DNA of 64,000 nt from Kineococcus aurantiacus (GTDB lineage: Bacteria; Actinomycetota; Actinomycetes; Actinomycetales; Kineococcaceae). Of this stretch, positions 27,310 through 49,506 are shown piece after piece; position 1 is the stretch's first letter; each line of letters starts with the position of its first letter. A program made the position numbers and the translations under genes. The notes under the pieces are model-generated. The model ran no database searches and was not told the DNA's origin. It saw nothing but the letters and a program-made list of their open reading frames with translations. The stretch covers positions 1,922,001-1,986,000 of the forward strand of contig NZ_JACCBB010000001.1 in NCBI RefSeq assembly GCF_013409345.1. The letters run 5' to 3'.

Positions 27310-28474
27310 CCTCCGCGAGCGCCTGCTCGACGCGGGCGACGACGGCGGCGGGCGAGTAGTTCGCCTCGGCGTGGGCGCGGGCGCGGGCCGCCAGCCCGCC
27401 CCGCAGCGCCAGCCCCCGCGAGATCGCCGCGGCCAGGTCGGCCGGGGCCGTGGAGGCCGCGACGGTCCGCGGGTCCAGGGACCCCGCCACCTCGGGGTTG
27501 GCCCCCACGGGGGTCGCGACGACCGGCAGGCCGCTGGCGAACGCCTCGACGGTGACGATCCCGAACCCCTCCATCTCCAGGGTGGGCAGGACGAACAGGT
27601 CCGCCGCGCGGTACAGCTCCGGCAGGTCCTCCTCGGCGACGAACCCGGGGAAGTCGACGGGCAGGCCGAGGCGCTCGGCGCGGGCGCGCAGCTGCGGGCC
27701 CAGGTACCCGGTCCCGCCGACGACGAGCCGGGCCCGGGGGTGCTCGGCCACGACCGCGCCGAACGCGTCGAGGAGGTTCTCCAGCCCCATGCGCCGCACG
27801 AGCCGGCGCACCGTGAGCAGCACCGGGTCGCCCGTGACCCCCAGCCGCGCGCGGTCGCCGGGGCCGGGGGCGAAGCGGTCGAGGTCGACGGCCAGCGGCA
27901 CCACGTCCACGCGGGCCCGGGCCGTGGGGTGGACCCGCTGCAGCAGCCGGCGCACGTACCAGCTCGTCGCCAGCGTGCGGGCGGTGCCGTCGACCGCCGC
28001 CAGCTCGGCGCGGCGGGTGAGGTCGGCGACGACCCCGCCGGCGGCGCGGGCCAGCGGGTACTTCCCGCCCGCGGCGTCGAGCTGGACCTCCAGCGAGGAC
28101 GGGGCGTGGAAGCGCAGGACGGTGCGGGACCCCAGCCCGGCGCGGACCGCGGCCGCGGCGTGGAACGTGGAGTGCACGTACAGCGCGTCGAAGCGTTCGC
28201 GGGCGTCCAGGGAGCGCAACCAGCCGGGCACCCGCAGCAGGGTCGCGGCGGGGTGGGCGTAGTAGGCGCGGCTGCCGCGCGCGGGGGCGGGGTGGCGCAG
28301 CAGCCGGTACCCGGGGCGCTGCTCGGCGAGGGGGGCGTCGCGGTCGTGGCGGCGGACGAGGACGGTGACGTCGTGGCCGCGGCGGGCCAGCTCGTCGACC
28401 TCGACGAGCACGGAGCTGGCGACGCCGCCGCGGTGCTCGGGCGGGACCCCGTCGGTGATCACGAGCAGGCGCAC
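27275..28474 (-). CDS. Glycosyltransferase family 4 (GT-B fold)
   Basis: 399 residues. The N-terminal acceptor domain begins VRLLVITDGVPPEHRGGVAS, with the glycine-rich loop. The C-terminal donor domain has VLLTVRRLVRRMGLENLLDAF, RLVVGGTGYLGPQLRARA and the GT4 nucleotide-sugar motif ADLFVLPTLEMEGFGIVTVEAFASGLPVVAT, with the conserved E-x7-E pair. It transfers a sugar from an NDP-sugar, likely to a lipid- or glycan-linked acceptor. It may serve surface polysaccharide assembly. The start GTG 28474 is set by homology; no SD is visible. The last 35 bp overlap the convergent upstream gene. Confidence 0.88.
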   Translation of the reverse strand: MRLLVITDGVPPEHRGGVASSVLVEVDELARRGHDVTVLVRRHDRDAPLAEQRPGYRLLRHPAPARGSRAYYAHPAATLLRVPGWLRSLDARERFDALYVHSTFHAAAAVRAGLGSRTVLRFHAPSSLEVQLDAAGGKYPLARAAGGVVADLTRRAELAAVDGTARTLATSWYVRRLLQRVHPTARARVDVVPLAVDLDRFAPGPGDRARLGVTGDPVLLTVRRLVRRMGLENLLDAFGAVVAEHPRARLVVGGTGYLGPQLRARAERLGLPVDFPGFVAEEDLPELYRAADLFVLPTLEMEGFGIVTVEAFASGLPVVATPVGANPEVAGSLDPRTVAASTAPADLAAAISRGLALRGGLAARARAHAEANYSPAAVVARVEQALAEVSSAGRARRAR

Positions 28475-38513: not shown

Positions 38514-40505
38514 TCAGGGCGTCGTGGCGAGCCAGATCTCCCCCACCGTCCCGGCCGGCCCGTCGGTGGGCTGCACGTACACGATCGCGCCAGGTTTGGC
38601 GGCGGCGTTGAACTGCTCCGGGGTGGCGAGAGCGCCGTCGACGTGGATCCGGCACCCCCACCCCAGCGACCACGTCTGCGGCGCCCCCGTGTCGACCGCG
38701 TGCCCGCGGAACGGGCTCGTCGTCCCGTCACCCGGGTCCACCGTCGGCAGCGTCCCGCCCTCGTAGACGCTGGTGAACGGCGCCGGCGCGTAGTTCGTGA
38801 TCCGGAGGTGGCGCACACCCCCGACGGTCCAGTCCTCCACGGCGTCGCCGACCGTCAGTTCGCTCGTGAACTGGGCCGGGGAGATCGACGTACCGGCGCG
38901 CTGGACGTCGTCGCCCGGACCGGGCAGCGGGTAGGTGTGGGCCGTGGTGCTGCCGTAGGTCCGGGCGGAGTACCCGGTGGCGTCGACCCCGACGACCGTC
39001 GCACTGATGGGGCCGTTGGTCAGCGCGACCGTCGTCCCCGTGACGCGCACCTGGTCGTAGTCGTTGAGGTCGGCCAGGAAACCGCTGCGGGTGCTGATCG
39101 CGCCGTCGACGAAGTACGTCCCGGCCACCGGCAGGTCGGCGTCGGCGAACGTCCGCAACCGCAGACCGGTACCGGGGTCGATGAGGGCGAAACCGCCCGC
39201 GAAGCGCTCGATCTGCCCGTCGGTCCAGTCCTCGGGCCGCGTCGTGAGCAACGTCCAGGTCACCGTCCCGGGACGGGGGATCTCCCACTCCGCGACGAGA
39301 CGGCTGCCGACGTGCGCCGCGGCGATCATCTCCGTGCGGGTCACCTCGCGCTCGTCGACGACGTAGGTGTGGTCGGGGTGCAGCTCCGCCTCGTGGGTCC
39401 CCACGAACAGCTTGCCGCCCGGCACGTCCACCGCGGTCACGGCCCGGGGCGCCGCGGGGCCGCCGTGGGCGAGCTCACGGGCGCGGACGGCGAGCGCCTG
39501 CGGGACGCTGCGCTCGTCGCCGAACACGGTGCCGCGGCTCATGACGTTGCTCGTCAGGTACTCCGTCGTCCCCGACCCCAGCGAGGCGGTGCCGTCGGTG
39601 AGCAGGATCGGGGCGCGGCGCAGCCCCGCCCACACCCCGGCACCGAGGGCGTCGACGGTGTACCCGTTGGCCAGGGCGACCTGCCCGCGCCACTCGTACA
39701 GGATGTACGGGGCCCACGCCCTCGCCAGCAGCGCCGCCGTCTGCGTGCGGTCCGCACCGCCGATGGTCTGGACCAGCGCCGACGGGACCAGGTCCGACAC
39801 CTCGTCGTGGACGTCCTGCGAGATGCCCCGACCGAGGAACACGACGTGCCGGGGTTGTCCCTCGGCGAGCGCGTCGGCCACCACGTCGGGGAGCCGGTCG
39901 GCGGCGGTGAGCAGGATCGGACGGCCGTTGAACGCGGCGGGACCGGCGGCCAGGGCATCGGCGGCGACCGTGCCGGTGGGAACGTCGCCGCGGGCGATGA
40001 ACACCGTCTCCGGGGCCGTCTCCCCGAAGCCGTAGATCTGGACCGCCGTGTCGTACCGGTCCTCACCGGCCACGATGCCCGCGACCCCGATGCCGGCGGC
40101 GTCGAGCTGGTCCAGCGCGGAGTCGCCCACCGAGTTCTCGTCACCGAGCACGACGACGTCCTCGACGCCCAGGGCGCGCAGCGCGGCGAGGGTGCTCGCC
40201 GGGACCGCGTCGCGGTCGGTCAGCAGGATCGGCGCCTTCTCCAGGCCCGCGAGGTAGGCGCCGGTCAGCGCGTCGACGTTGCGCCAGCCGTTCGCGAGGA
40301 TCGCCGTGGTCGTCCCGTCCGGGAACGCGTCGAGCGCGGTCCGGGCCGCGGTGTCGAACCGGTCGACCCCACCGATCCGGCGATCGGGCGCGTCGGGCTG
40401 GAACCCGGTGCTGGCCGCGGCGGGCAGCGCCGAACCGGCGGTCGCCAGGGACGTCAGGACGAACGCGGCGGCGAGGGCGCGCAACCGCGGGGACCGCGAG
40501 GGCAT
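38514..40505 (-). CDS. Secreted protein with cell wall binding repeat 2 domains
   Basis: 663 residues. A signal peptide (RLRALAAAFVLTSLATAGSALPAAAS) is followed by three cell-wall-binding-repeat-2 units (about 35-130, 130-230, 230-340). Each has a (I/V)xGxDRxxTA start and LLTxxDxLP or VVxLGDxxSV features: RIGGVDRFDTAART, APILLTDRDAVP, VVVLGDENSVGDS, EDRYDTAVQIYGF, ADRTQTAALLARA. The C-terminal 320 residues are unrecognised and beta-rich with many Asp, Thr and Tyr. CW_binding_2 triplets anchor Clostridium proteins to the wall polymer; in actinobacteria they mark exported surface proteins. AGGAG lies 9 nt before the ATG. Confidence 0.88.
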   Translation of the reverse strand: MPSRSPRLRALAAAFVLTSLATAGSALPAAASTGFQPDAPDRRIGGVDRFDTAARTALDAFPDGTTTAILANGWRNVDALTGAYLAGLEKAPILLTDRDAVPASTLAALRALGVEDVVVLGDENSVGDSALDQLDAAGIGVAGIVAGEDRYDTAVQIYGFGETAPETVFIARGDVPTGTVAADALAAGPAAFNGRPILLTAADRLPDVVADALAEGQPRHVVFLGRGISQDVHDEVSDLVPSALVQTIGGADRTQTAALLARAWAPYILYEWRGQVALANGYTVDALGAGVWAGLRRAPILLTDGTASLGSGTTEYLTSNVMSRGTVFGDERSVPQALAVRARELAHGGPAAPRAVTAVDVPGGKLFVGTHEAELHPDHTYVVDEREVTRTEMIAAAHVGSRLVAEWEIPRPGTVTWTLLTTRPEDWTDGQIERFAGGFALIDPGTGLRLRTFADADLPVAGTYFVDGAISTRSGFLADLNDYDQVRVTGTTVALTNGPISATVVGVDATGYSARTYGSTTAHTYPLPGPGDDVQRAGTSISPAQFTSELTVGDAVEDWTVGGVRHLRITNYAPAPFTSVYEGGTLPTVDPGDGTTSPFRGHAVDTGAPQTWSLGWGCRIHVDGALATPEQFNAAAKPGAIVYVQPTDGPAGTVGEIWLATTP

Positions 40506-40563
40506 GGGTGAGGTTCTCCTAGGACGCGGGGCGCGATGGCCTCCGCTGGTGGTTCGTCCTCCC

Positions 40564-40592
40564 ACTGTAAGGACGCGCCCGGTCGGTCGGAA
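40564..40592 (-). promoter_or_regulatory. Candidate promoter of the cell-wall-binding protein gene
   Basis: On the minus strand TTCCGA and TACAGT are 17 nt apart, about 60 nt upstream of the start codon. The shared 11-mer GAACGGGTGAA lies 17 bp further upstream, at an activator-like position. Confidence 0.4.
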
Positions 40593-40608
40593 GCTTTTCG
40601 GGAAGCCG

Positions 40609-40619
40609 TTCACCCGTTC
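40609..40619 (-). promoter_or_regulatory. Shared upstream motif GAACGGGTGAA, copy 2
   Basis: It is on the coding strand of the cell-wall-binding protein gene, 104 bp before its start. The flanking sequence extends the match with copy 1 to GAACGGGTGAAC. A second GTGAACG overlaps it on the 5' side. Confidence 0.4.
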
Positions 40620-40751
40620 ACGAGCCGGCGACGACGGCGCGTTAGTCACGCATCAGGATCCTGTCAGGGCGCCGTCGAGGACTGTTCCCGCGGAGGTGTG
40701 CACGCCTCACGTCTACAGCAGGCTCAGCACCACCACGTAGGACCCTCCCGG

Positions 40752-40757
40752 TACCGT
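40752..40757 (+). promoter_or_regulatory. Possible -10 hexamer TACCGT for a leaderless transcript
   Basis: TACCGT ends 9 nt before the ATG of the GT39-like gene, without a Shine-Dalgarno. Confidence 0.4.
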
Positions 40758-40766
40758 GACCGGGTC

Positions 40767-42116
40767 ATGACGCGAACCCGACGACTGCTCACCCTCCTCG
40801 TCGTCCTCGTCGGGGTGTTCGTGTTCTGCTGGCGCCTGGGCGTCGAGTCGTCTACCGGGGATGAGCTCGTGTACCGCGACGCCGGCGCCGCCTACGTGCA
40901 CGGCGACTTCCGCGCCAACCTCGAGCACCCTCCGCTGGCGAAGTTCCTCATCGGTCTCGGCCACCTGGTGTTCGGAGGTTCCCTCACGGCGGACCGGCTG
41001 CCGTCGGCCCTTTTGGGGATCGCAACCGGTGGTGTCCTGTTCTACGTCGCCCGCCGAGTCGCGGGGCCGTGGGCGGGGTTGGTCGCGATGACGCTCTGGT
41101 ACGTCCTGCCCCTGCACCCCGGCGTCGTCGAGGCGCACGTCGGCCGGCAGGCGACCCTGGAGATGCCGCTGCTGTTCTTCACCGCCTGCGCAGTGTGGGC
41201 GGCACAAGGCGTCGCGGCCCAGCCGGTGTGGTGGCGGTGGGCGGTCTTCGGCGCAGCCGTGGGGGCGGCCACGGCGACGAAGCTCACCGGAGCGGCCGTG
41301 GCGGTCGTCGTTCTCGTCGCGTGGGCCGTGCACCCCCGCAAGGTCGGTGGTGTTCTGCTGGCGGGTCTGACCGCCGTGGTGGTGTTCCTCGCGACGTACG
41401 CACCGTTCGGCGCGCAGGCCCCGCACGCGGTGTGGACGGTCGTGGACTGGCAGCTGGGCCACGCCGGCCGCGGCGCCGTCCAGCACGTCGCGGGGCAGAA
41501 CTACGCGTTCCCGCCGTGGTGGGCGGCGTGGTGGTTCCAGTCCCGCTACCTGGGGTGGGTGGCGCTGGTGGCGCTGTGGGTGAGCGCCACGCTCGGTGTC
41601 GCCCTCGTCCGGCGCGTGTCCACCGCGGTGGTCGCCGCCGCAGTCGTGGGTTTCACCGTCGCGGTCGTGGTGTCACCGTTGAAGCTGCCGCAGTACCACG
41701 ACGTCCTCGCCTCGCCGCTGGTGGCGCTCACTGCCGTCGGCCTGGTGCGGATCTCCTTCCGCGCCTGGCCGGTGGCGGCCGTCCTGGCGGTCCCGCTGCT
41801 CGTCGCGGCCGGCGCCCAGCTGGGGCAGGTGGCGAACACCCGGACCGCCGACTACGCCCTGCTCGCCCCCGAGCTGCGCGCTCTGCCCGCCGGTTCCGTG
41901 GTCGTGTCCTGGGCCGACACCGCCGCGCTGCAGCGCGGAGCACCCGACGTCCGGGTGATCGGACATGGCGCGGTGGATTGCGCCGCGACGCTCGTCGTCG
42001 ACCCGACCGTCGCCGACCGCATCCCCGGAGCTGACCTCGCAGGGTGGGTTCGGGAGTGCGATGGGAGCGTCGAGCGGTACGACCGACTGGAGGTCGTGCG
42101 GCCGGTCAGCCGGTGA
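40767..42116 (+). CDS. GT39-like polyprenyl-phosphate mannosyltransferase-type membrane glycosyltransferase
   Basis: 449 residues with about ten transmembrane helices. The first outside loop has STGDELVYRDAGAAYVHGDF and NLEHPPLAKFLIGLGH, the DE and EHPPL(A/G)K hallmarks of the dolichyl-phosphate-mannose-protein mannosyltransferase (GT39/PMT) family. GRQATLEMPLLFFTACAVWAA and ATATKLTGAAVAVVVL are also typical. The C-terminal 80 residues are soluble. It should transfer a sugar from a polyprenyl-phosphate carrier to an exported acceptor. The neighbouring secreted surface proteins are plausible acceptors. The start ATG 40767 has no SD and follows TACCGT. Confidence 0.82.
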   Translation: MTRTRRLLTLLVVLVGVFVFCWRLGVESSTGDELVYRDAGAAYVHGDFRANLEHPPLAKFLIGLGHLVFGGSLTADRLPSALLGIATGGVLFYVARRVAGPWAGLVAMTLWYVLPLHPGVVEAHVGRQATLEMPLLFFTACAVWAAQGVAAQPVWWRWAVFGAAVGAATATKLTGAAVAVVVLVAWAVHPRKVGGVLLAGLTAVVVFLATYAPFGAQAPHAVWTVVDWQLGHAGRGAVQHVAGQNYAFPPWWAAWWFQSRYLGWVALVALWVSATLGVALVRRVSTAVVAAAVVGFTVAVVVSPLKLPQYHDVLASPLVALTAVGLVRISFRAWPVAAVLAVPLLVAAGAQLGQVANTRTADYALLAPELRALPAGSVVVSWADTAALQRGAPDVRVIGHGAVDCAATLVVDPTVADRIPGADLAGWVRECDGSVERYDRLEVVRPVSR

Positions 42117-42149
42117 GGAACCCCGCACCGTCACGGGTGCGGGGTTCCT
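42116..42149. terminator. Bidirectional hairpin terminator between the GT39-like gene and tiny gene B
   Basis: AGGAACCCCGCAC and GTGCGGGGTTCCT form a 13-bp perfect stem with an 8-nt loop. It starts at the stop codon of the GT39-like gene and ends 8 bp from the stop codon of the convergent tiny gene. Confidence 0.75.
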
Positions 42150-42157
42150 GCGGTGCT

Positions 42158-42259
42158 TCAGATGCGGTAGCCGGCGTGAGCTGCTTCCACCCCCAGGACG
42201 ACGAGGGAGGAGGACAGGACGGTGACGGCGGCGAGGCGGATGCGGTTCTTGAGGCTCAC
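42158..42259 (-). CDS. Tiny signal-peptide-only protein B (33 aa), paralogue of the next gene
   Basis: A 33-codon gene. It has a basic N-terminus (VSLKNRIRLA), a hydrophobic core (AVTVLSSSLVVLGV) and the C-terminus EAAHAGYRI. AGGAGA stands 6 nt before the GTG. AHA is a textbook signal peptidase I site (Ala at -3 and -1); cleavage would release GYRI. The product aligns with tiny protein A over its whole length: KNRIR, a Ser-rich hydrophobic core, then EAAHAGxRI. It is encoded 26 bp downstream of A. Both lie beside membrane glycosyltransferases and surface proteins. It could be a secreted peptide signal precursor or a small membrane protein. The function is unknown. Confidence 0.7.
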   Translation of the reverse strand: MSLKNRIRLAAVTVLSSSLVVLGVEAAHAGYRI

Positions 42260-42285
42260 GGCGATCTCCTGGGTGGTGGGTGGGG

Positions 42286-42384
42286 TCAGTTGATGCGGAG
42301 GCCGGCGTGCGCGGCCTCGATGCCGATCAGGACGAACGACGACGACAGTGCGCCGACCAGGGCGATGCGGATGCGGTTCTTCAC
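42286..42384 (-). CDS. Tiny signal-peptide-only protein A (32 aa)
   Basis: A 32-codon gene: N-terminus VKNRIRIALV, core GALSSSFVLIGI, C-terminus EAAHAGLRIN. GGGAGG lies 6 nt before the GTG, an excellent ribosome binding site. A candidate promoter (TGAACG, 17 nt, TAGCGT) lies just upstream, so the gene has its own complete expression signals. Signal peptidase I cleavage after AHA would leave GLRIN. The neighbouring paralogue B shares the same layout but has quite different synonymous codons, which shows selection on the peptide rather than recent DNA duplication. Some genomes encode peptide pheromones in the tails of signal peptides; that comparison is inference. Confidence 0.72.
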   Translation of the reverse strand: MKNRIRIALVGALSSSFVLIGIEAAHAGLRIN

Positions 42385-42422
42385 GTGGTTCCTCCCGTCG
42401 GTGGGTGGTGCGTGCACCGCAA

Positions 42423-42451
42423 ACGCTAGGACGACACTGCGTGATCGTTCA
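42423..42451 (-). promoter_or_regulatory. Candidate promoter of the tiny peptide genes
   Basis: On the minus strand TGAACG and TAGCGT are separated by exactly 17 nt. This predicts a transcript start near 42416 and a leader of about 32 nt holding the GGGAGG site of tiny gene A. The -35 region overlaps a CGTTC-AGCC-GAACG inverted repeat (42446-42459). Confidence 0.5.
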
Positions 42452-42454
42452 GCC

Positions 42455-42465
42455 GAACGGGTGAA
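42455..42465 (+). promoter_or_regulatory. Shared upstream motif GAACGGGTGAA, copy 3
   Basis: It lies directly upstream of the -35 element of the tiny gene promoter and shares GAACG with the inverted repeat there. Its orientation relative to the gene is reversed compared with copies 1 and 2. Confidence 0.4.
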
Positions 42466-42504
42466 GAGGCTCAGATCGGTTGCCGAACCATCAAGAGGCG
42501 CCGA

Positions 42505-43938
42505 TCAGCCAACGGTGCAGCCCGCTTCCCACACCGGCTCCGGCAGCGGCGGGTTCCCCGTGGGCTCCGGCAGCCACACCGTCCCCCGGCACGGCATCCG
42601 CAGCGCGACCGCGGCACCGCGGCGCACCACCTCCACGGACGGGTCGCGGGACAGCCGGTCGACGAGGGCGGCCTTGCCGGCCCTCGTCGCGCTCGCCCCG
42701 TCGATGCGCAGGTCCACGACGACCCAGTCGGCCTGCACGGCGTCGGTGTTGGTGAAGATCCGGACGGTGTGCCGGGTCACGAAGTACGGCCCGGCCCCGT
42801 TGTCGGCGGACACCAGCGAGCCCGCCGGGAGCACCGCCGAGACGGCCAGCAGGTCGCGCGTCGCGGCGGACGGCCGCCATGTGTCGGCGCTGAAGGGGTT
42901 CACGACGTAGTTCGCGGTCAGGTAGGTGAACGTGCTCGCCGCCAGGCTGAGAGCGGCGACCACCGGTAGGACGCGTCGGACGGCGACAGGACGACGCCAC
43001 CGGCGCAACACGTCGACGAGCGCCACGAACACGATCGGCATGAGGACGCCGTCGTAGTGGAACCGTGGGGACCAGTAGCTGTCGTAGGGCGAGACGAGCC
43101 GCCACAGCAGGGTCGGCACCGCGACCAGCGCGAGGGGCGATCGCACCCACAAGATCCCGCCCGTGACGAGCAGCAGGAGCACCAGCTCCAACCGCGGCCA
43201 CCCGTCGGTGCTCCACGCGAACGGCGCCGACGTGGCCGCCTCCCCCGCGAAGCGGAGCGCGAACAGCGGGATCTCGTGCTGCGGGTTCTGCCAACGGATG
43301 ACGGCGAACGCACCGAACGTCCCGACCACCGCTGTCAGGGCGGTCCCGACCCCCAGCAACCGGCGACGCCCCCGCGCGAAGCAGAACACCAGGAACGCCA
43401 CCGCGACGATCGTCGGCCCCTGGTCCTCCTTGACGAGCAGCAGCGGCAACGCCCACCAGCACGCCGCCCCGAGACGGCGCTCCAGCAGGGCCGCGCACGA
43501 CAGAGCTATGAGCGGGGTGGCGAACGCGACCTCGTGCACGTCGAGGCGGGCGACGTTCACGACGCCGTAGGAGACGGCGTACAACGCGGCAAGGAGGACC
43601 GCCGTCTCAGCGCTCAGGTGCCGACGCGCGACCGAGAAGACGACGCCCGCCGTGAGCGCCAGCGGCACGGCCTGGACGACGATGAGCGCCCGCGGGTCCG
43701 GCCACACCCACCACGCCGCACCCCACACCACCGTCACCGGGCTGAAGTGCTCACCGAGGAGCGGCAGGCCGCGGATCGCGCTGAACGGCAGGTGACCCGA
43801 GGCCCAGGACTGGGCGGACTGGGCGAAGACGCCGAGGTCATAGGCGCCGGAGCGGCCGACGTTCCAGCGGGCCAGACCGAGCCAGGAGAACCAGAGGAAG
43901 GTGAGGAGGACGACGGTGGGAGGGGTGGCGCGGCGCAT
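42505..43938 (-). CDS. DUF2079 family polytopic membrane protein (GT-C-like)
   Basis: 477 residues with about ten transmembrane helices. The DUF2079 signatures are clear: GAYDLGVFAQSAQSWASGHLPF, PLLGEHFSPVTVV, RLDVHEVAFATPLIAL and LLLVKEDQGPTIVAV. The pattern of acidic residues in the first outside loop and the overall layout relate it to GT-C glycosyltransferases, but no activity is proven for the family. The soluble C-terminus (LSADNGAGPYFVTRH, ADWVVVDLR) resembles that of the GT39-like neighbour. It lies upstream of the tiny genes on the same strand, 120 bp away. TAGGTT ends 9 nt before the ATG. Confidence 0.82.
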   Translation of the reverse strand: MRRATPPTVVLLTFLWFSWLGLARWNVGRSGAYDLGVFAQSAQSWASGHLPFSAIRGLPLLGEHFSPVTVVWGAAWWVWPDPRALIVVQAVPLALTAGVVFSVARRHLSAETAVLLAALYAVSYGVVNVARLDVHEVAFATPLIALSCAALLERRLGAACWWALPLLLVKEDQGPTIVAVAFLVFCFARGRRRLLGVGTALTAVVGTFGAFAVIRWQNPQHEIPLFALRFAGEAATSAPFAWSTDGWPRLELVLLLLVTGGILWVRSPLALVAVPTLLWRLVSPYDSYWSPRFHYDGVLMPIVFVALVDVLRRWRRPVAVRRVLPVVAALSLAASTFTYLTANYVVNPFSADTWRPSAATRDLLAVSAVLPAGSLVSADNGAGPYFVTRHTVRIFTNTDAVQADWVVVDLRIDGASATRAGKAALVDRLSRDPSVEVVRRGAAVALRMPCRGTVWLPEPTGNPPLPEPVWEAGCTVG

Positions 43939-43947
43939 GGTGCGTTG

Positions 43948-43953
43948 AACCTA
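43948..43953 (-). promoter_or_regulatory. Possible -10 hexamer TAGGTT for a leaderless transcript
   Basis: On the minus strand TAGGTT ends 9 nt before the ATG of the DUF2079 gene; no Shine-Dalgarno is seen. Confidence 0.4.
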
Positions 43954-44019
43954 CAGAGGTTTCGACCGCTCCTTCCCCCAAGATCGCTGGTACAACTCTT
44001 GTCGTTACACACGACACAA

Positions 44020-44053
44020 AGGCGGGCCCCCACCGTGTCATGGGGACCCGCCT
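44020..44053 (-). terminator. Hairpin terminator of the S-layer-like gene
   Basis: Arms AGGCGGGTCCCCA and TGGGGGCCCGCCT (one mismatch) lie 37 bp past the stop codon. They are followed on the minus strand by a T-rich stretch (TTTGTGTCGTGTGT). This is the only hairpin in the window with a clear T-rich tail, consistent with a highly expressed gene. Confidence 0.7.
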
Positions 44054-44089
44054 CGTTGTCACGCCAGGAAGGGCGTCAGTGCGTGATCG

Positions 44090-46660
44090 TCAGGACTCGT
44101 CGTCCACCGTGACGTCCGCGGAACCAGCCAGGTTGAGCTGGTTGCCCGCCACGTCGTCGAACTGGCTGGAAACGAGGCTGACCTTGACGGAGTCGCCCGC
44201 CACGTCGAGCCCGTTGTCCTCGCCGGCGACGAGGCCGAACGTCGCACCAGCCACAGGAACCGTGATGACCAGCTGGTCGTCGGTGTCCGTGTCGGTGGCC
44301 TGCGCGAACCCACCGCTCACCTGGTAGGTGCTGTCACCGTCACTGAAGCGGAGGAAGGTACCCGCGTCACCGAGGGTCGACGCCATCGACTCGGAGAACG
44401 TGAGCGTCACCACGTCGGCCGAGTCCAGCACACCGAGCGTGCCGTTGTCGTCCGTGAGAACGGTGTCCTCAATGGTCGGAGCGGTGTTGTCGGTGTTCGT
44501 CACCTCAGTGGTGAGTTCGAACCCATCGCTGGGCTCCGACTCCTCCTGGCCGACGGTCTGGGTGACGTACACGTCGTACGACGTGTCGTCGTCCAGGCCG
44601 GTCAGGGTGATGTCCCAGTTGTCGGTGCTGGTGTCACTGTCGGCCGTGAAGCTGCGCGACTCAAAGGTGTCCGTGTCAAGCGCCGTGACGGTGTCGTCGT
44701 TGGTGTCAGCGATGTAGTACACGGTGACGGAGGACACGTCGTCCGAGAGGTTGCTCACCTCGAGGTCCGCGGTGGTGTCGGTGACGTCGTCAGCGGCAAC
44801 GTCGTCCACCGTGAGCCCAGCCGTGTCGAGCCCAGTCAGGGTCGGCGGCTCGGGCGTGAGGTCGGTCAGCACGAACGTCGACTGGAGCGCCGGGGTCGCG
44901 TTGTACGACGTGGTGGTGTCGAGTTCGTCACCGACGGACAGCTGCTCGAAGAAGTCTGCCGCGACGACCTCGGTGGAACCGAGGAAGTACCGGTCGTTGG
45001 CGTTGATCTCGACGATCGAGAACGTACCGGTGGCGGCGGTGGTGTCGCTGTCCAGGACCAGGCTGGTGACATCGCCGTTCGGGATGATCTCGGCGATCTC
45101 GAAGTCCGCACCGAGGGCGGCAGCGGTGGCCCGCTCGGCCGGCAGCAGGCTGAGCACGCCACCGAGGCCGAAGGCCTCGGTGGGGGTGTCCACGGCGTCA
45201 GCACCGAGAGCGATGTCCCCATCTTCGTCGGAGTCGACGAAGACGACCGGCACGACATCACCGTAAGCAGTGCCGTTGACAGTGAAGGAGATCTGCCCGT
45301 TGACGGGCTCGGCGGTCAGCTCGTCGGTGCCCGCCACCGCCGTGCCGTTGATGACGTTGATCTCTGCGGCGGCGACCGAACCGGTCTCGTACTGATCGGT
45401 GTCGTCGTCGTCGGCGAAGGACACCACACCGTTCGCGGTCGTGGTGATGTCGTCGGCGTTCACCAGAGCGACGGTGTACTCGGTGTCCGCGGTCAGGCCG
45501 GTCGCCGTGTACTGACGCGAAGTGGTGTCAGCGCTGAGGGAGATGGTGCTCGCCTCGGTCGGGGAGACGGTGATCGTCTGGTTCGAGGTGGGCGTGCCCC
45601 CCTTGGCCGCAGTCGTCGCTGCCGCAGCGATGGTCGAGGTGACGCTGTTCTCATCACCGAAGACCCACGCCTTGGTCAGCGTCGCGGCGTTCGCGGTCAG
45701 GTAGGCCTCGGTGCCGACACCGAGACCGACGGTGCCCTCGGTCAGCAGGATCGGCGAGCCGGCCTTGCCGACGACCGGGCCGGCGGCCAGGGCGTCGATG
45801 CGGAAGCCGTTGGCGAGAGCGGCGCCGGTCTTGTTGAATCCGAAGTCGGTCTCGTTGGCAATCGCGGCCGCGGTGGCGGTGCGGTCCGAGCCCTGGATGC
45901 GCTCGATGTCGGTGACGCTGGCAAGACCGTCGACCTGGGTGTAGACCGCGTCGGAGACCGCGTTGGCGTTGCCCAGGACGTAGACCTTGGTGACACCGGC
46001 GGTGTTCAGCGCGGCGAGGGTCTCGGCGGGCAGCGAGTCCTGGTTGGTCAGCAGGACCGGGATCTTGTTCTTGAAGGCGGCCGGGCCGGCGGCGAGCGCG
46101 TCGGCGGCGACCTGGCCGACGCCGTACTGGTCACCACGGGCGAGGAAGACCGTCTTCGGCGGCGTGACGCCAGCCTCGGTCATGATGTCGACCGCAGTCT
46201 GGAAGCGGTTCGGGCCGTCGATGCGCTGACCGGTCTTGGAACCGACGAGGGCGGTGTAGGTGCTGGCCGAGACCGCGTTCGTGTCACCGAGGACGATGAC
46301 CGTGGTCGGGTTCAGCGAGGCGATGGCGGCGGCGGTCTGGGAGGGGACCGAGTCCTTCTGCGTGAGAAGGATCGGCGCGTCCTTGACGCCGGCCAGGTAC
46401 GACGCGGCGAGGGCGTCGATGCCCGTGACCTCGCCGTTGGCGACGATGACGGTGGACGCGGTGGTCCAGCCGGCCAGCGCGGCCTTGGCGGCGGTGTCGT
46501 AGCGGTCGACACCGGCGAGACGGGAAGAAGCGGCGGAAGGGTCGAAGCCGGGAGCAGCCTGAGCCGCGCCCGCGAGACCCGCGATGGAACCAAGCCCAAC
46601 CAGAGCGGCGACGCCAGCCCCGATACCACGCCGGCGCAACCGGGAGGTTGCTGCGGTCAC
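44090..46660 (-). CDS. Large acidic S-layer-like secreted protein with cell wall binding repeat 2 domains
   Basis: 856 residues. A signal peptide (RRRGIGAGVAALVGLGSIAGLAGAAQAA) is followed by three cell-wall-binding-repeat-2 units in residues about 35-330 (RLAGVDRYDTAAKAAL, APILLTQKDSVPSQ, VIVLGDTNAVSAS, QRIDGPNRFQTAVDIM, IPVLLTNQDSLPAE, SDRTATAAAIANE). The rest is beta-rich, extremely rich in Asp and Thr and poor in Lys and Arg, with an FnIII-like segment (VTVYYIADTNDD to SYDVYVTQTV) and a final domain like a bacterial adhesin (APTIEDTVLTDDNG, VVTLTFSESM). An acidic, secreted, repeat-anchored protein with a strong terminator fits an S-layer or major surface role. GGAGG lies 6 nt before GTG 46660. 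Confidence 0.85.
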   Translation of the reverse strand: MTAATSRLRRRGIGAGVAALVGLGSIAGLAGAAQAAPGFDPSAASSRLAGVDRYDTAAKAALAGWTTASTVIVANGEVTGIDALAASYLAGVKDAPILLTQKDSVPSQTAAAIASLNPTTVIVLGDTNAVSASTYTALVGSKTGQRIDGPNRFQTAVDIMTEAGVTPPKTVFLARGDQYGVGQVAADALAAGPAAFKNKIPVLLTNQDSLPAETLAALNTAGVTKVYVLGNANAVSDAVYTQVDGLASVTDIERIQGSDRTATAAAIANETDFGFNKTGAALANGFRIDALAAGPVVGKAGSPILLTEGTVGLGVGTEAYLTANAATLTKAWVFGDENSVTSTIAAAATTAAKGGTPTSNQTITVSPTEASTISLSADTTSRQYTATGLTADTEYTVALVNADDITTTANGVVSFADDDDTDQYETGSVAAAEINVINGTAVAGTDELTAEPVNGQISFTVNGTAYGDVVPVVFVDSDEDGDIALGADAVDTPTEAFGLGGVLSLLPAERATAAALGADFEIAEIIPNGDVTSLVLDSDTTAATGTFSIVEINANDRYFLGSTEVVAADFFEQLSVGDELDTTTSYNATPALQSTFVLTDLTPEPPTLTGLDTAGLTVDDVAADDVTDTTADLEVSNLSDDVSSVTVYYIADTNDDTVTALDTDTFESRSFTADSDTSTDNWDITLTGLDDDTSYDVYVTQTVGQEESEPSDGFELTTEVTNTDNTAPTIEDTVLTDDNGTLGVLDSADVVTLTFSESMASTLGDAGTFLRFSDGDSTYQVSGGFAQATDTDTDDQLVITVPVAGATFGLVAGEDNGLDVAGDSVKVSLVSSQFDDVAGNQLNLAGSADVTVDDES

Positions 46661-46737
46661 GATTGCCTCCAAGGCATGTGAAGTGATGTTCCCCCCCATG
46701 AGGGGCCGGCCCGATTTCGAGCCTCCGCCACCCCGCC

Positions 46738-46755
46738 CTCCGCTACTCAGCGGAG
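46738..46755 (-). other. Hairpin in the S-layer-like gene's leader
   Basis: CTCCGCT and AGCGGAG form a 7-bp stem with a 4-nt loop in the presumed untranslated leader, about 80 nt upstream of the start codon. It could stabilise the mRNA. Confidence 0.35.
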
Positions 46756-46774
46756 TGACTCGGTGACGGAACCG

Positions 46775-46800
46775 AACGTACACGAGAGTCACATCTGCAA
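46775..46800 (-). promoter_or_regulatory. Possible promoter of the S-layer-like gene
   Basis: On the minus strand TTGCAG is followed after 14 nt by TACGTT; the spacing is short. It would give a leader of about 108 nt. This is the best match in an unusually A/T-containing stretch. Confidence 0.25.
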
Positions 46801-47280
46801 CACGGGGAGTAACGAAAGATCACGAGGGTCTACGGCGTGTCGTCTGGCGCACACAGCGCGTGACCTGCGGTTTTGCTGTCCGCAGCCCAAAGTTACAGTT
46901 TGGTAACGGGCAGCCTCACCCGTCCCGACGGCCACAGGTACCCCATGCGGAGTAGTCACAACGGATGGTGTCACCACCCACGCACGAACCATCACGCTCT
47001 GTGACTCACGTGGGGGACTCCGGGTGGACCAGACCTCCGTGGCTCGAACGGGTCGTCGTCGCTGGCTGTGACGGAGACGATCACGGAACGGATCCCTCGA
47101 GCACCTTCCCCCGGCGACCGCCGGGCCAGGTGACGACGGAGGGTGGTGGGACCCCGGGACCCCGGGGGCCGGGCCACCGCACGACCCGCTGCGCTGCGTG
47201 GTCACCGGCGCCGTCGACACCGGCCGACGTCACGCGCTCGGCCCATCCAGCCGGCCCCCGCCGCCGCCGAACCCCTCTCC

Positions 47281-49506
47281 ATGACGCTCCCCCGGCAAGC
47301 CCGGCCCGCGGCCCTGTCCGCGTCGGTGCTCGCCGTCACCCTGGCCCTCCTGGTGTGCGCGCACACCCGGTGGCCGGACGCCCAGCACCTCAAGGTCGCC
47401 ACCGGCCTGGTCTGGCTCGCCGCGAGCGCCGCCGTCCCCCTCGTCCGGCGCCGCGGCAGCCGCGCCACCGTCGCCCGGCACACGCTAGCGGCGGCGGCGT
47501 GGGGGGCCGGGACCACCGCGGCGGGCCTGTTCCCGCACGCCGCGCTCGGGCCGCTGCCGTTCCCGCCGGTCGTGCAGGCCCTGTCCCTGCTGCCGGTGGC
47601 GGCCGTCGTCGTCCAGCAGCTGCGCACGGCCCGCGTGGGCGACCACGCCCGGTCACCGCTCGTCGAGGCGGTCTTCCTCGCGACCGTGCTGGCCGGGATC
47701 GGCTGGGACGGGTACGCCCGCGCCGGGTTCACCGGCGACGCGGGGTGGGCCGCGGGCACCGTCCTCGTCCTCGTGACGGCCTCCCTCGTGGCGGCCGCCA
47801 CGACCGTGCTGGCCGTCGAGCAGCCGCGGCTGCGGCTGTGCGGGATCGGGCTGGCGATCGGCGCGGTGGGCACCGAGGTCAGCGCCGTCGTGTCGGCCGA
47901 GCAGCCGGTCACCGGGGACGTCGGGACGGCCCTGGGCCTGCTCGGGGCGCTCGTGCTGGTGGTCCGCGGGCCCCGGACGCGGCTCGTGCGGCACGGCGGG
48001 GCGGCCGCGGCGCGGGCCGTGCGCCGGCAGCGGGTGGCCGGTGCGGTGCCCGCGGGTCTCGTGCTGGCCGACGTGGCGCTGTTCGCCGTCTCCCCCCGCG
48101 ACGACGTGCTGATGCTCGTCTTCCTCGGCGGGACGGTCGTCGGGGCGGCCCTGCGGCAGGCCGTGACGGCGCGCGCGGTCGACCGCACGAGCGACCGGCT
48201 GTCCTTCCAGGCGCTGCACGACCCGCTGACGGGGCTGCAGAACCGCACCGCGCTGCGCGACGCCCTCACCGAGCCCGACCGGGTGCAGTCGCTGGTGCTG
48301 CTGGAGGTCACGGGCCTGGACGACGTCACCGACGTCCTCGGCGTGGCCGTGGGCGAGGAGGTGCTGCGGGCCGCGGCGGCGAACCTGCGCGAGCACGTCA
48401 CCCCCCTGGGCGGCAGCACCTACCGGGTCCGGCACGACGAGTTCGCGCTGCTGCTGCCCGGCGCCCCCGACAAGGTGGCCCGGCACCTGCCCGGCGTGCT
48501 CGACGCCGTCAGCGCCGCGCCCCTGCAGGTCCCCGGCGCCGGGCGGTTCCCCGTGGACGCGCTCGCGGGCCTGTCCCGCGTCGACCCCGGCACCCCCACC
48601 GACGGCGGCGCGACGCTGCCCCTCGTGCACGCCGACCTGGCCCTGCGCGACGCCCGCACCAATCCCCGCGGCCAGGGGTACTCGGTGTTCTCCGGTGAGG
48701 TCGCCGCCCAGCACGCCCGCCGGCTGAAGGTCCGCGAGCGCCTCGCCGCGGCCGTCGCCGACGGCGCCGTCGACGTCCACTTCCAGCCCATCGTGGACCT
48801 CACGACGGGCCGGGTCGTGAAGTTCGAGGCGCTGGCCCGCTGGGACGACGCCGAGCTGGGCCGCGTCTCGCCCGTGGAGTTCGTCCCCGTCGCCGAGGAG
48901 TCCAACCTCGTCGTGGCCCTCGGCGAGCACGTCCTGCGGACCGCGGTGGACCGCGCGCACGCCGCGGGCGTGTTCGACGCCGGGGTCCGGCTGGCCGTCA
49001 ACGTGTCCGTCGTGCAGCTGCAGTCGCCGGGGTTCGCGGACGTCGTGCGGCAGATCCTGTCCACCTACCGGATCGCGCCGGAGCTGCTGACGCTGGAGCT
49101 GACCGAGTCGGTGTTCCTGGACTCCGACTCCCCCGCCGAGCGCGTCGTCACCGAACTGGCCCGGCTGGGCTGCCAGATCGCGATCGACGACTTCGGCACC
49201 GGCTACTCGGCGTTCGGGTACCTGGACCGGCTGCCCGTGCACGTCCTGAAGATCGACCGGTCCCTGACGCAGTCCCTGACGACCGGCGGCAACGGGCGGT
49301 CGGTCGTGACGGCCGTCGTGGACCTGGCGAACCGGCTGGGCCTGACCGTCGTCGTGGAGGGCGTCGAGACCGACGAGGAGGCCGCGATCTGCCGGTCGAT
49401 GCAGGCCGGGCTGGGGCAGGGCTGGCTGTACTCGGCGGCCGTCACCGCCGACCGGGTCGCCGAGGAGCTGCAGCGGGAGCACCCGGTCTCGGGCGGGGTG
49501 TGGTGA
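47281..49506 (+). CDS. Membrane GGDEF-EAL protein with degenerate GGDEF (paralogue 1)
   Basis: 741 residues. About eight transmembrane helices occupy residues 1-290. The GGDEF domain has a broken active site, YRVRHDEF in place of GGDEF (about residue 384), so it should not synthesise c-di-GMP. The EAL domain is complete: KFEALARW at about 516, NVSVVQLQ, ELTESVFLD, IDDFGTGYSAFGYL, LKIDRS, VEGVETDEEA and GQGWLYS. It is therefore probably a phosphodiesterase. It is a close relative of the protein at 50711-53002 over the full length. ATG 47281 is chosen by comparison with that paralogue. Both reading ends of the convergent pair finish in Val-Trp-stop inside a shared inverted repeat. Confidence 0.87.
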   Translation: MTLPRQARPAALSASVLAVTLALLVCAHTRWPDAQHLKVATGLVWLAASAAVPLVRRRGSRATVARHTLAAAAWGAGTTAAGLFPHAALGPLPFPPVVQALSLLPVAAVVVQQLRTARVGDHARSPLVEAVFLATVLAGIGWDGYARAGFTGDAGWAAGTVLVLVTASLVAAATTVLAVEQPRLRLCGIGLAIGAVGTEVSAVVSAEQPVTGDVGTALGLLGALVLVVRGPRTRLVRHGGAAAARAVRRQRVAGAVPAGLVLADVALFAVSPRDDVLMLVFLGGTVVGAALRQAVTARAVDRTSDRLSFQALHDPLTGLQNRTALRDALTEPDRVQSLVLLEVTGLDDVTDVLGVAVGEEVLRAAAANLREHVTPLGGSTYRVRHDEFALLLPGAPDKVARHLPGVLDAVSAAPLQVPGAGRFPVDALAGLSRVDPGTPTDGGATLPLVHADLALRDARTNPRGQGYSVFSGEVAAQHARRLKVRERLAAAVADGAVDVHFQPIVDLTTGRVVKFEALARWDDAELGRVSPVEFVPVAEESNLVVALGEHVLRTAVDRAHAAGVFDAGVRLAVNVSVVQLQSPGFADVVRQILSTYRIAPELLTLELTESVFLDSDSPAERVVTELARLGCQIAIDDFGTGYSAFGYLDRLPVHVLKIDRSLTQSLTTGGNGRSVVTAVVDLANRLGLTVVVEGVETDEEAAICRSMQAGLGQGWLYSAAVTADRVAEELQREHPVSGGVW

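Follow-up and report, generated by a model that had tools for sequence, protein, structure and literature searches.

Two tandem micro-ORFs of Kineococcus aurantiacus that may encode little more than a signal peptide and a short tail

Can a bacterial gene encode a signal peptide and almost nothing else? Two very short open reading frames located back to back in the genome of Kineococcus aurantiacus raise this question, and we analysed them within the surrounding stretch of 64,000 nucleotides (the window). ORF1 (42286–42384, minus strand) starts with GTG, ends with TGA and encodes 32 amino acids, (M)KNRIR-IALVGALSSSFVLIGI-EAAHA/GLRIN, where the slash marks the predicted cleavage site. ORF2 (42158–42259, minus strand) uses the same start and stop codons and encodes 33 amino acids, (M)SLKNRIR-LAAVTVLSSSLVVLGV-EAAHA/GYRI. 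In full, ORF1 reads (M)KNRIRIALVGALSSSFVLIGIEAAHAGLRIN and ORF2 (M)SLKNRIRLAAVTVLSSSLVVLGVEAAHAGYRI, and 26 bp separate the two ORFs. Both share the same layout of KNRIR, a hydrophobic core of 16 residues and EAAHA, followed by GLRIN in ORF1 and GYRI in ORF2. A Shine-Dalgarno sequence precedes each start codon, GGGAGG for ORF1 (42391–42396, minus strand, 6 nt 5′ of the GTG) and AGGAGA for ORF2 (42265–42270, minus strand, 5 nt 5′ of the GTG, or 6 nt if AGGAG is counted). The positions, strand, lengths, spacing, ribosome binding sites and peptide patterns given in the first-pass annotation were all confirmed by reading the sequence, and the GTG start of both ORFs is a detail added here. Signal peptidase I requires small neutral residues at positions −3 and −1. 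Reading and simple scoring of both peptides pointed to n-, h- and c-regions and an AHA site; a basic n-region (KNRIR), a hydrophobic core and a predicted cleavage site of the form AHA/G are combined in each of them.

The two ORFs are paralogues. They share 21 of 30 aligned residues, with neither internal indels nor internal stop codons. Among the 30 aligned codons, 14 are identical, seven differ silently and nine change the residue; the 24 nucleotide differences at 90 sites are distributed 8/4/12 over the three codon positions. The first-pass annotation had described the synonymous codons as widely different. This is true in so far as 14 identical codons at the 21 unchanged residues are close to the 12.5 expected for independent draws from local usage (P(≥14) = 0.30), an expectation into which the strong local bias, with AAC, ATC and CAC near 100%, is already built; on the other hand, the contrast of silent and replacement changes (Nei-Gojobori dN 0.24, dS 0.61; Fisher P = 0.064) is suggestive only, and the third-position excess of differences gave P = 0.068. 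The silent positions thus resemble random draws although the peptide has been preserved, with too few sites to prove saturation. When 24 random substitutions were placed on ORF1 in a Monte Carlo simulation, a mean of 15.2 residues was kept in stop-free trials, compared to 21 observed (P = 0.0011). No residue changes its polarity class between ORF1 and ORF2 (Monte Carlo P = 0.0014).

Conservation is unevenly distributed along the peptides. All five residues of the n-region and all five of EAAHA are kept, the latter with silent changes at three codons, as are three of four tail residues, compared to only eight of 16 in the hydrophobic core. The best-conserved part is therefore EAAHAGxRI, with eight of nine residues kept beside three silent changes. 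KNRIR and HAG-x-RI carry no silent changes, which is mostly accounted for by codon bias. The codon-usage score is 0.84 for ORF1 and a weaker 0.66 for ORF2, with a mean of 0.82 for the genes of the window, and each ORF scores higher in its own frame than in the five others. In ORF2, three consecutive rare codons, GAA GCA GCT (42179–42187, minus strand; 5%, 1% and 2% in window genes), fall exactly at the c-region of the signal peptide. Because the peptide is kept while silent sites look randomised, the codon pattern fits a constraint at the peptide level and argues for translated, selected genes. The codon analysis, the simulations and the conservation of EAAHAGxRI add weight to the earlier claim that the peptides are under selection, without proving it. 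A recent duplication is made less likely by the silent divergence. A scan for the whole architecture (Shine-Dalgarno sequence, basic start, hydrophobic core, A-x-A-like site and short tail) found only ORF1 and ORF2 in the 64-kb window, compared to one match among 30 windows simulated with a first-order Markov model, at thresholds that were chosen with the pair already in view. With looser settings, no match was found in eight related stretches (132 kb).

Homologues were searched for at increasing distance. In its own genome, the ORF2 peptide matched only the pair itself (two matches). At E ≤ 1, five of the 11 genomes of the genus gave a match. Four of them are congeners, in which the matches (E 0.0499 or weaker) lie in other frames or proteins. 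A two-row profile applied to a sample of 396 genomes of the order, the own included (E ≤ 0.5), matched 160 of them, the best match outside the own genome having an E-value of 0.001. Among the many matches listed, none of the 18 short-frame or tail-type ones inspected has the architecture; weak matches within the genus (G001, G004, G009) lie inside much longer frames, of several hundred residues each. Only the own genome was recovered among 12 genomes of the family (E ≤ 0.05) and among 394 of the class (E ≤ 0.005), and a plasmid search with ORF2 gave no match. Scans with two narrow peptide patterns returned 133 stretches of the genome_contigs and 29 of the viral_contigs collection, none of which was confirmed; such scans would miss diverged relatives and may skip records very close to the own genome. 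The pattern EAAHAGxRI occurred in at least 118 stretches of genome_contigs and in 22 of the viral contigs, and when the 140 matches listed were placed in frame and ranked by distance to the stop codon, none of the nearest 40 showed a signal peptide followed by only a few residues. The tail pattern followed by one codon and a stop, which fits ORF1 only, was found in one of the 11 genus genomes, the own one. Neither in the own genome nor in the genus did we recognise a longer protein bearing the same signal sequence, and neither peptide matched Pfam or NCBIfam.

At the DNA level, short matches (E ≤ 1) were obtained in all 11 genus genomes, and the 5′ half of ORF2 recurs in several. Five of these matches (L207, L210, L213, L217 and L223) all fall within one conserved protein, which we take to be luciferase-like, and were dismissed as chance hits arising from similar codons. 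The first-pass annotation had named a lack of homologues in related genomes as evidence against its proposal, and such a lack is what the 10 other congeners, the order, the class, the contigs and the plasmids searched revealed. Among these genomes and collections, the ORF pair is an orphan. A literature search with narrowly combined terms found nothing on such a system, which we do not put forward as a claim of absence.

The DNA flanking the pair was expected to hold a promoter and a terminator. Between ORF2 and the convergent gene lies a perfect 14-bp inverted repeat with a 6-nt loop (42116–42149), with a free energy of −34.4 kcal/mol and a z-score of −4.9 for the folded 61-nt stretch. The hairpin proposed as a terminator is thus present 3′ of ORF2, but it has no T-run, and a terminator scan requiring one called nothing. 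As it adjoins the stop codon of the convergent gene, it may serve both sides. The promoter was not found by a consensus scan; TAGCGT (42423–42428, minus strand), a possible −10 element of ORF1, was noticed by eye only. An alternative in-frame GTG lies 6 nt past this hexamer (42417, minus strand), from which a leaderless reading (42417–42286, minus strand) could give a 43-aa product with an N-terminal extension of 11 residues.

Further upstream of ORF1, two imperfect repeats of about 30 nt (GATCNGNGCCTCTT...GTTCGGC..AAC; 42446–42506, minus strand) were recognised as repeat family D5 and by eye. They contain the small dyads GGTTCGGCAACC and CGTTCGGCTGAACG, and are possible candidate sites for a regulator. 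The tandem-repeat finder called nothing for them. With the spacing of the proximal copy and one mismatch, the own genome held a single match and no other copy. The repeat was rejected as a regulon signal, with eight matches in seven of the 11 genus genomes compared to 16 for a reversed control (one mismatch), as it was within the window, with six matches compared to 8.7 expected (three mismatches). A looser dyad pattern was more common than its control (49 + 64 versus 7 + 8), and the looser sites listed look unrelated. A structured RNA was rejected as well, since no Rfam match was obtained for positions 40000–45000 of the window (E ≤ 1) and folding showed no excess of structure (z +1.4).

The pair is located between a PMT_2-family gene (40767–42116, plus strand), which is convergent with it, and a gene for a DUF2079 membrane protein on the upstream side of ORF1 (42505–43938, minus strand). 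Two CWB2 genes flank these two genes (38514–49506). The first-pass annotation had placed the pair in a surface glycosylation and S-layer locus; the two CWB2 genes, the PMT_2 gene and the DUF2079 gene are indeed present, but the terms S-layer and glycosylation are not supported. DUF2079-type matches occur in seven of the 11 genus genomes, the own included. In two congeners, G004 (DUF2079 77%, PMT_2 66% identity) and G008 (62% and 58%), both genes are divergent neighbours, whereas here they are convergent with the pair between them. In the stretches examined, neither congener carries the ORF pair although both neighbour genes are present, and no link between the pair and the GT-C genes emerged. 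G008 keeps a CWB2 gene next to an EAL-GGDEF gene, an arrangement also seen here, but its PMT_2 and DUF2079 genes are divergent; the locus has thus been rearranged. Among the 26 of 50 predicted gene products of the window that were scanned, neither a TPR domain nor a receptor-type neighbour was found, and the PMT_2 and DUF2079 neighbours gave no TPR match. Positions 28365–58642 are rich in signalling proteins of the c-di-GMP and SpoIIE-phosphatase types: EAL-GGDEF proteins and SpoIIE proteins that carry PAS or GAF domains occur three times each, along with a HATPase_c_2 protein.

What, then, might the pair do? The explanation that we tentatively prefer, while giving it less than an even chance, is that the products are micropeptides exported by the Sec system and cut by signal peptidase I, releasing the tail of four to five residues as a short peptide signal or effector. 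The basic KNRIR, the 16-residue core and the c-region ending in AHA would take the 32–33-residue product to the membrane. Targeting would presumably be post-translational, since 32–33 residues roughly fill the ribosome tunnel and the chain would end before clearing the ribosome. Cleavage after AHA would then release GLRIN and GYRI to the outside. There the tails, with a shared G-x-R-I core and one variable residue, might act as short signals or effectors; this last step from cleaved tail to signal is one that we infer. The c-region and tail are better conserved than the core, which is more readily explained by a role of the cleaved product, or by specific recognition of this end of the peptide, than by simple anchoring. 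In its most specific form, in which the ORFs are bare-signal-peptide precursors turned by one signal peptidase I cut into finished GYRI and GLRIN, two paralogous signals or effectors sharing G-x-R-I that would work through a putative receptor, the proposal seems doubtful. Even in the case of Phr, PMC4147580 states that a role of the common signal peptidases in processing the precursors 'could not be demonstrated'. The sequence shows the ORFs, their ribosome sites, their paralogy, the constraint-like codon pattern and the hairpin; expression, export, cleavage and function are inferred.

A signal peptide with such a short tail may instead stay in the membrane. Many bacterial micropeptides of about this size act as membrane-retained partners, and the single 16-residue hydrophobic segment with charges on its flanks would suit a transmembrane helix that leaves the short EAAHAGxRI end outside, in contact with a partner such as the adjoining DUF2079 or PMT_2 membrane protein. 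This is somewhat unlikely in itself and nearly as likely as a secreted tail, and the sequence cannot separate the two. Retention is opposed by the AHA at −3 to −1, which suits signal peptidase I well and whose residues were kept beside silent changes. The stretches examined in G004 and G008 contain both neighbour genes, divergent, and lack such ORFs, so PMT_2 and DUF2079 are not always in need of the pair. The predicted tails also lack Ser and Thr and would not be substrates of O-mannosylation. A different origin is offered by decay: the ORFs might be young or degenerating and functionless, a signal-sequence remnant of a gene for a secreted protein that was duplicated and truncated. Such an origin would agree with the failure to recognise a homologue in the 10 other congeners or more widely, with the position of the pair at a local rearrangement (convergent PMT_2 and DUF2079 here, divergent in G004 and G008), with a Fisher P of only 0.064 and with the run of rare codons in ORF2. 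We consider it rather improbable, as it must explain why residues were kept while silent sites were randomised, why neither frame is shifted, why both ribosome sites are retained and both stops come right behind the R-I tail, and why neither the own genome nor the genus revealed a longer protein with this signal sequence.

Two other roles appear far less probable. Type I toxins of toxin-antitoxin pairs are small and hydrophobic like these peptides and often occur as tandem repeats, as the ORFs do; the strong Shine-Dalgarno sequences, the AHA site, which fits export better, and the lack of excess RNA structure make this role quite improbable, as does the lack of matches in Rfam (E ≤ 1, 40000–45000), Pfam and NCBIfam, through which families not yet described would slip. 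Least probable of all, to a degree that we hardly consider it, is a leader or arrest peptide that controls a downstream gene through ribosome stalling. Secretion monitors are typically encoded by short ORFs with Sec targeting (PMC7897499, PMC10987492), but downstream of the pair there is no same-strand gene within reach, only the hairpin (42116–42149) and then the convergent gene. To judge by reading the C-termini, RAPP-like or SecM-like motifs are also absent.

If released tails were sensed, a gene for a secreted peptide could hardly be smaller: 32 codons would hold both the export signal and the message, with no further processing. Such sensing would also suggest linear peptide signalling in Actinomycetota. 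The signals described for this phylum are typically small molecules made by enzymes (PMC10075063), or else butyrolactones and peptides that are cyclic or modified (PMC4748050). Even if the peptides were retained in the membrane, an orphan duplicated pair this short would exemplify a kind of gene that is easily overlooked in annotation.

How does the pair compare to known systems? The arrest peptides SecM, MifM, VemP and the RAPP class are encoded by short ORFs for secreted products with a signal sequence, as may be true of the pair. They differ from the pair in having an arrest motif and a regulated gene, and no controlled gene lies directly downstream of the pair on the same strand. Enterococcal and streptococcal PrgQ/SHP precursors, near-bare hydrophobic leaders of about 20 residues, come close to the ORFs in this respect. 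They differ in that the active peptide lies within the hydrophobic part and that a PrgX or Rgg receptor accompanies them. Their export depends on PptAB, not on Sec (PMC10075063). The Phr/RRNPP(A) peptides of Bacillota resemble the pair in their small precursor, basic n-region, hydrophobic core and short C-terminal peptide, and in a Sec-type signal, which the pair may also have. Validated RRNPP(A) propeptides are 21–50 aa long, are mostly exported by Sec and usually carry the mature peptide in their last 4–10 residues, and the search criteria comprise a propeptide of 10–100 aa, Sec secretion and a TPR receptor of 250–500 aa within −60 to 400 bp (PMC10075063); Phr pentapeptides are located at the precursor C-terminus (PMC4147580). 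Precursors are also described as usually having 50–120 aa and receiving their first cut from signal peptidase (PMC11343458). With 32 and 33 aa, the ORFs are within the RRNPP length range, and it is possible, by analogy, that the pair works like a Phr precursor. Membership in RRNPP was rejected, as no 250–500 aa TPR receptor adjoins the pair and its PMT_2 and DUF2079 neighbours have no TPR match; in addition, no spacer separates the signal peptidase site from the tail, and two separate paralogous genes take the place of repeats within one propeptide. Single-pass bacterial membrane micropeptides, with about 30 aa and one hydrophobic segment, have the same dimensions as the two ORF products, which are distinguished from them by the AHA signal peptidase site and the conserved tail of four to five residues.
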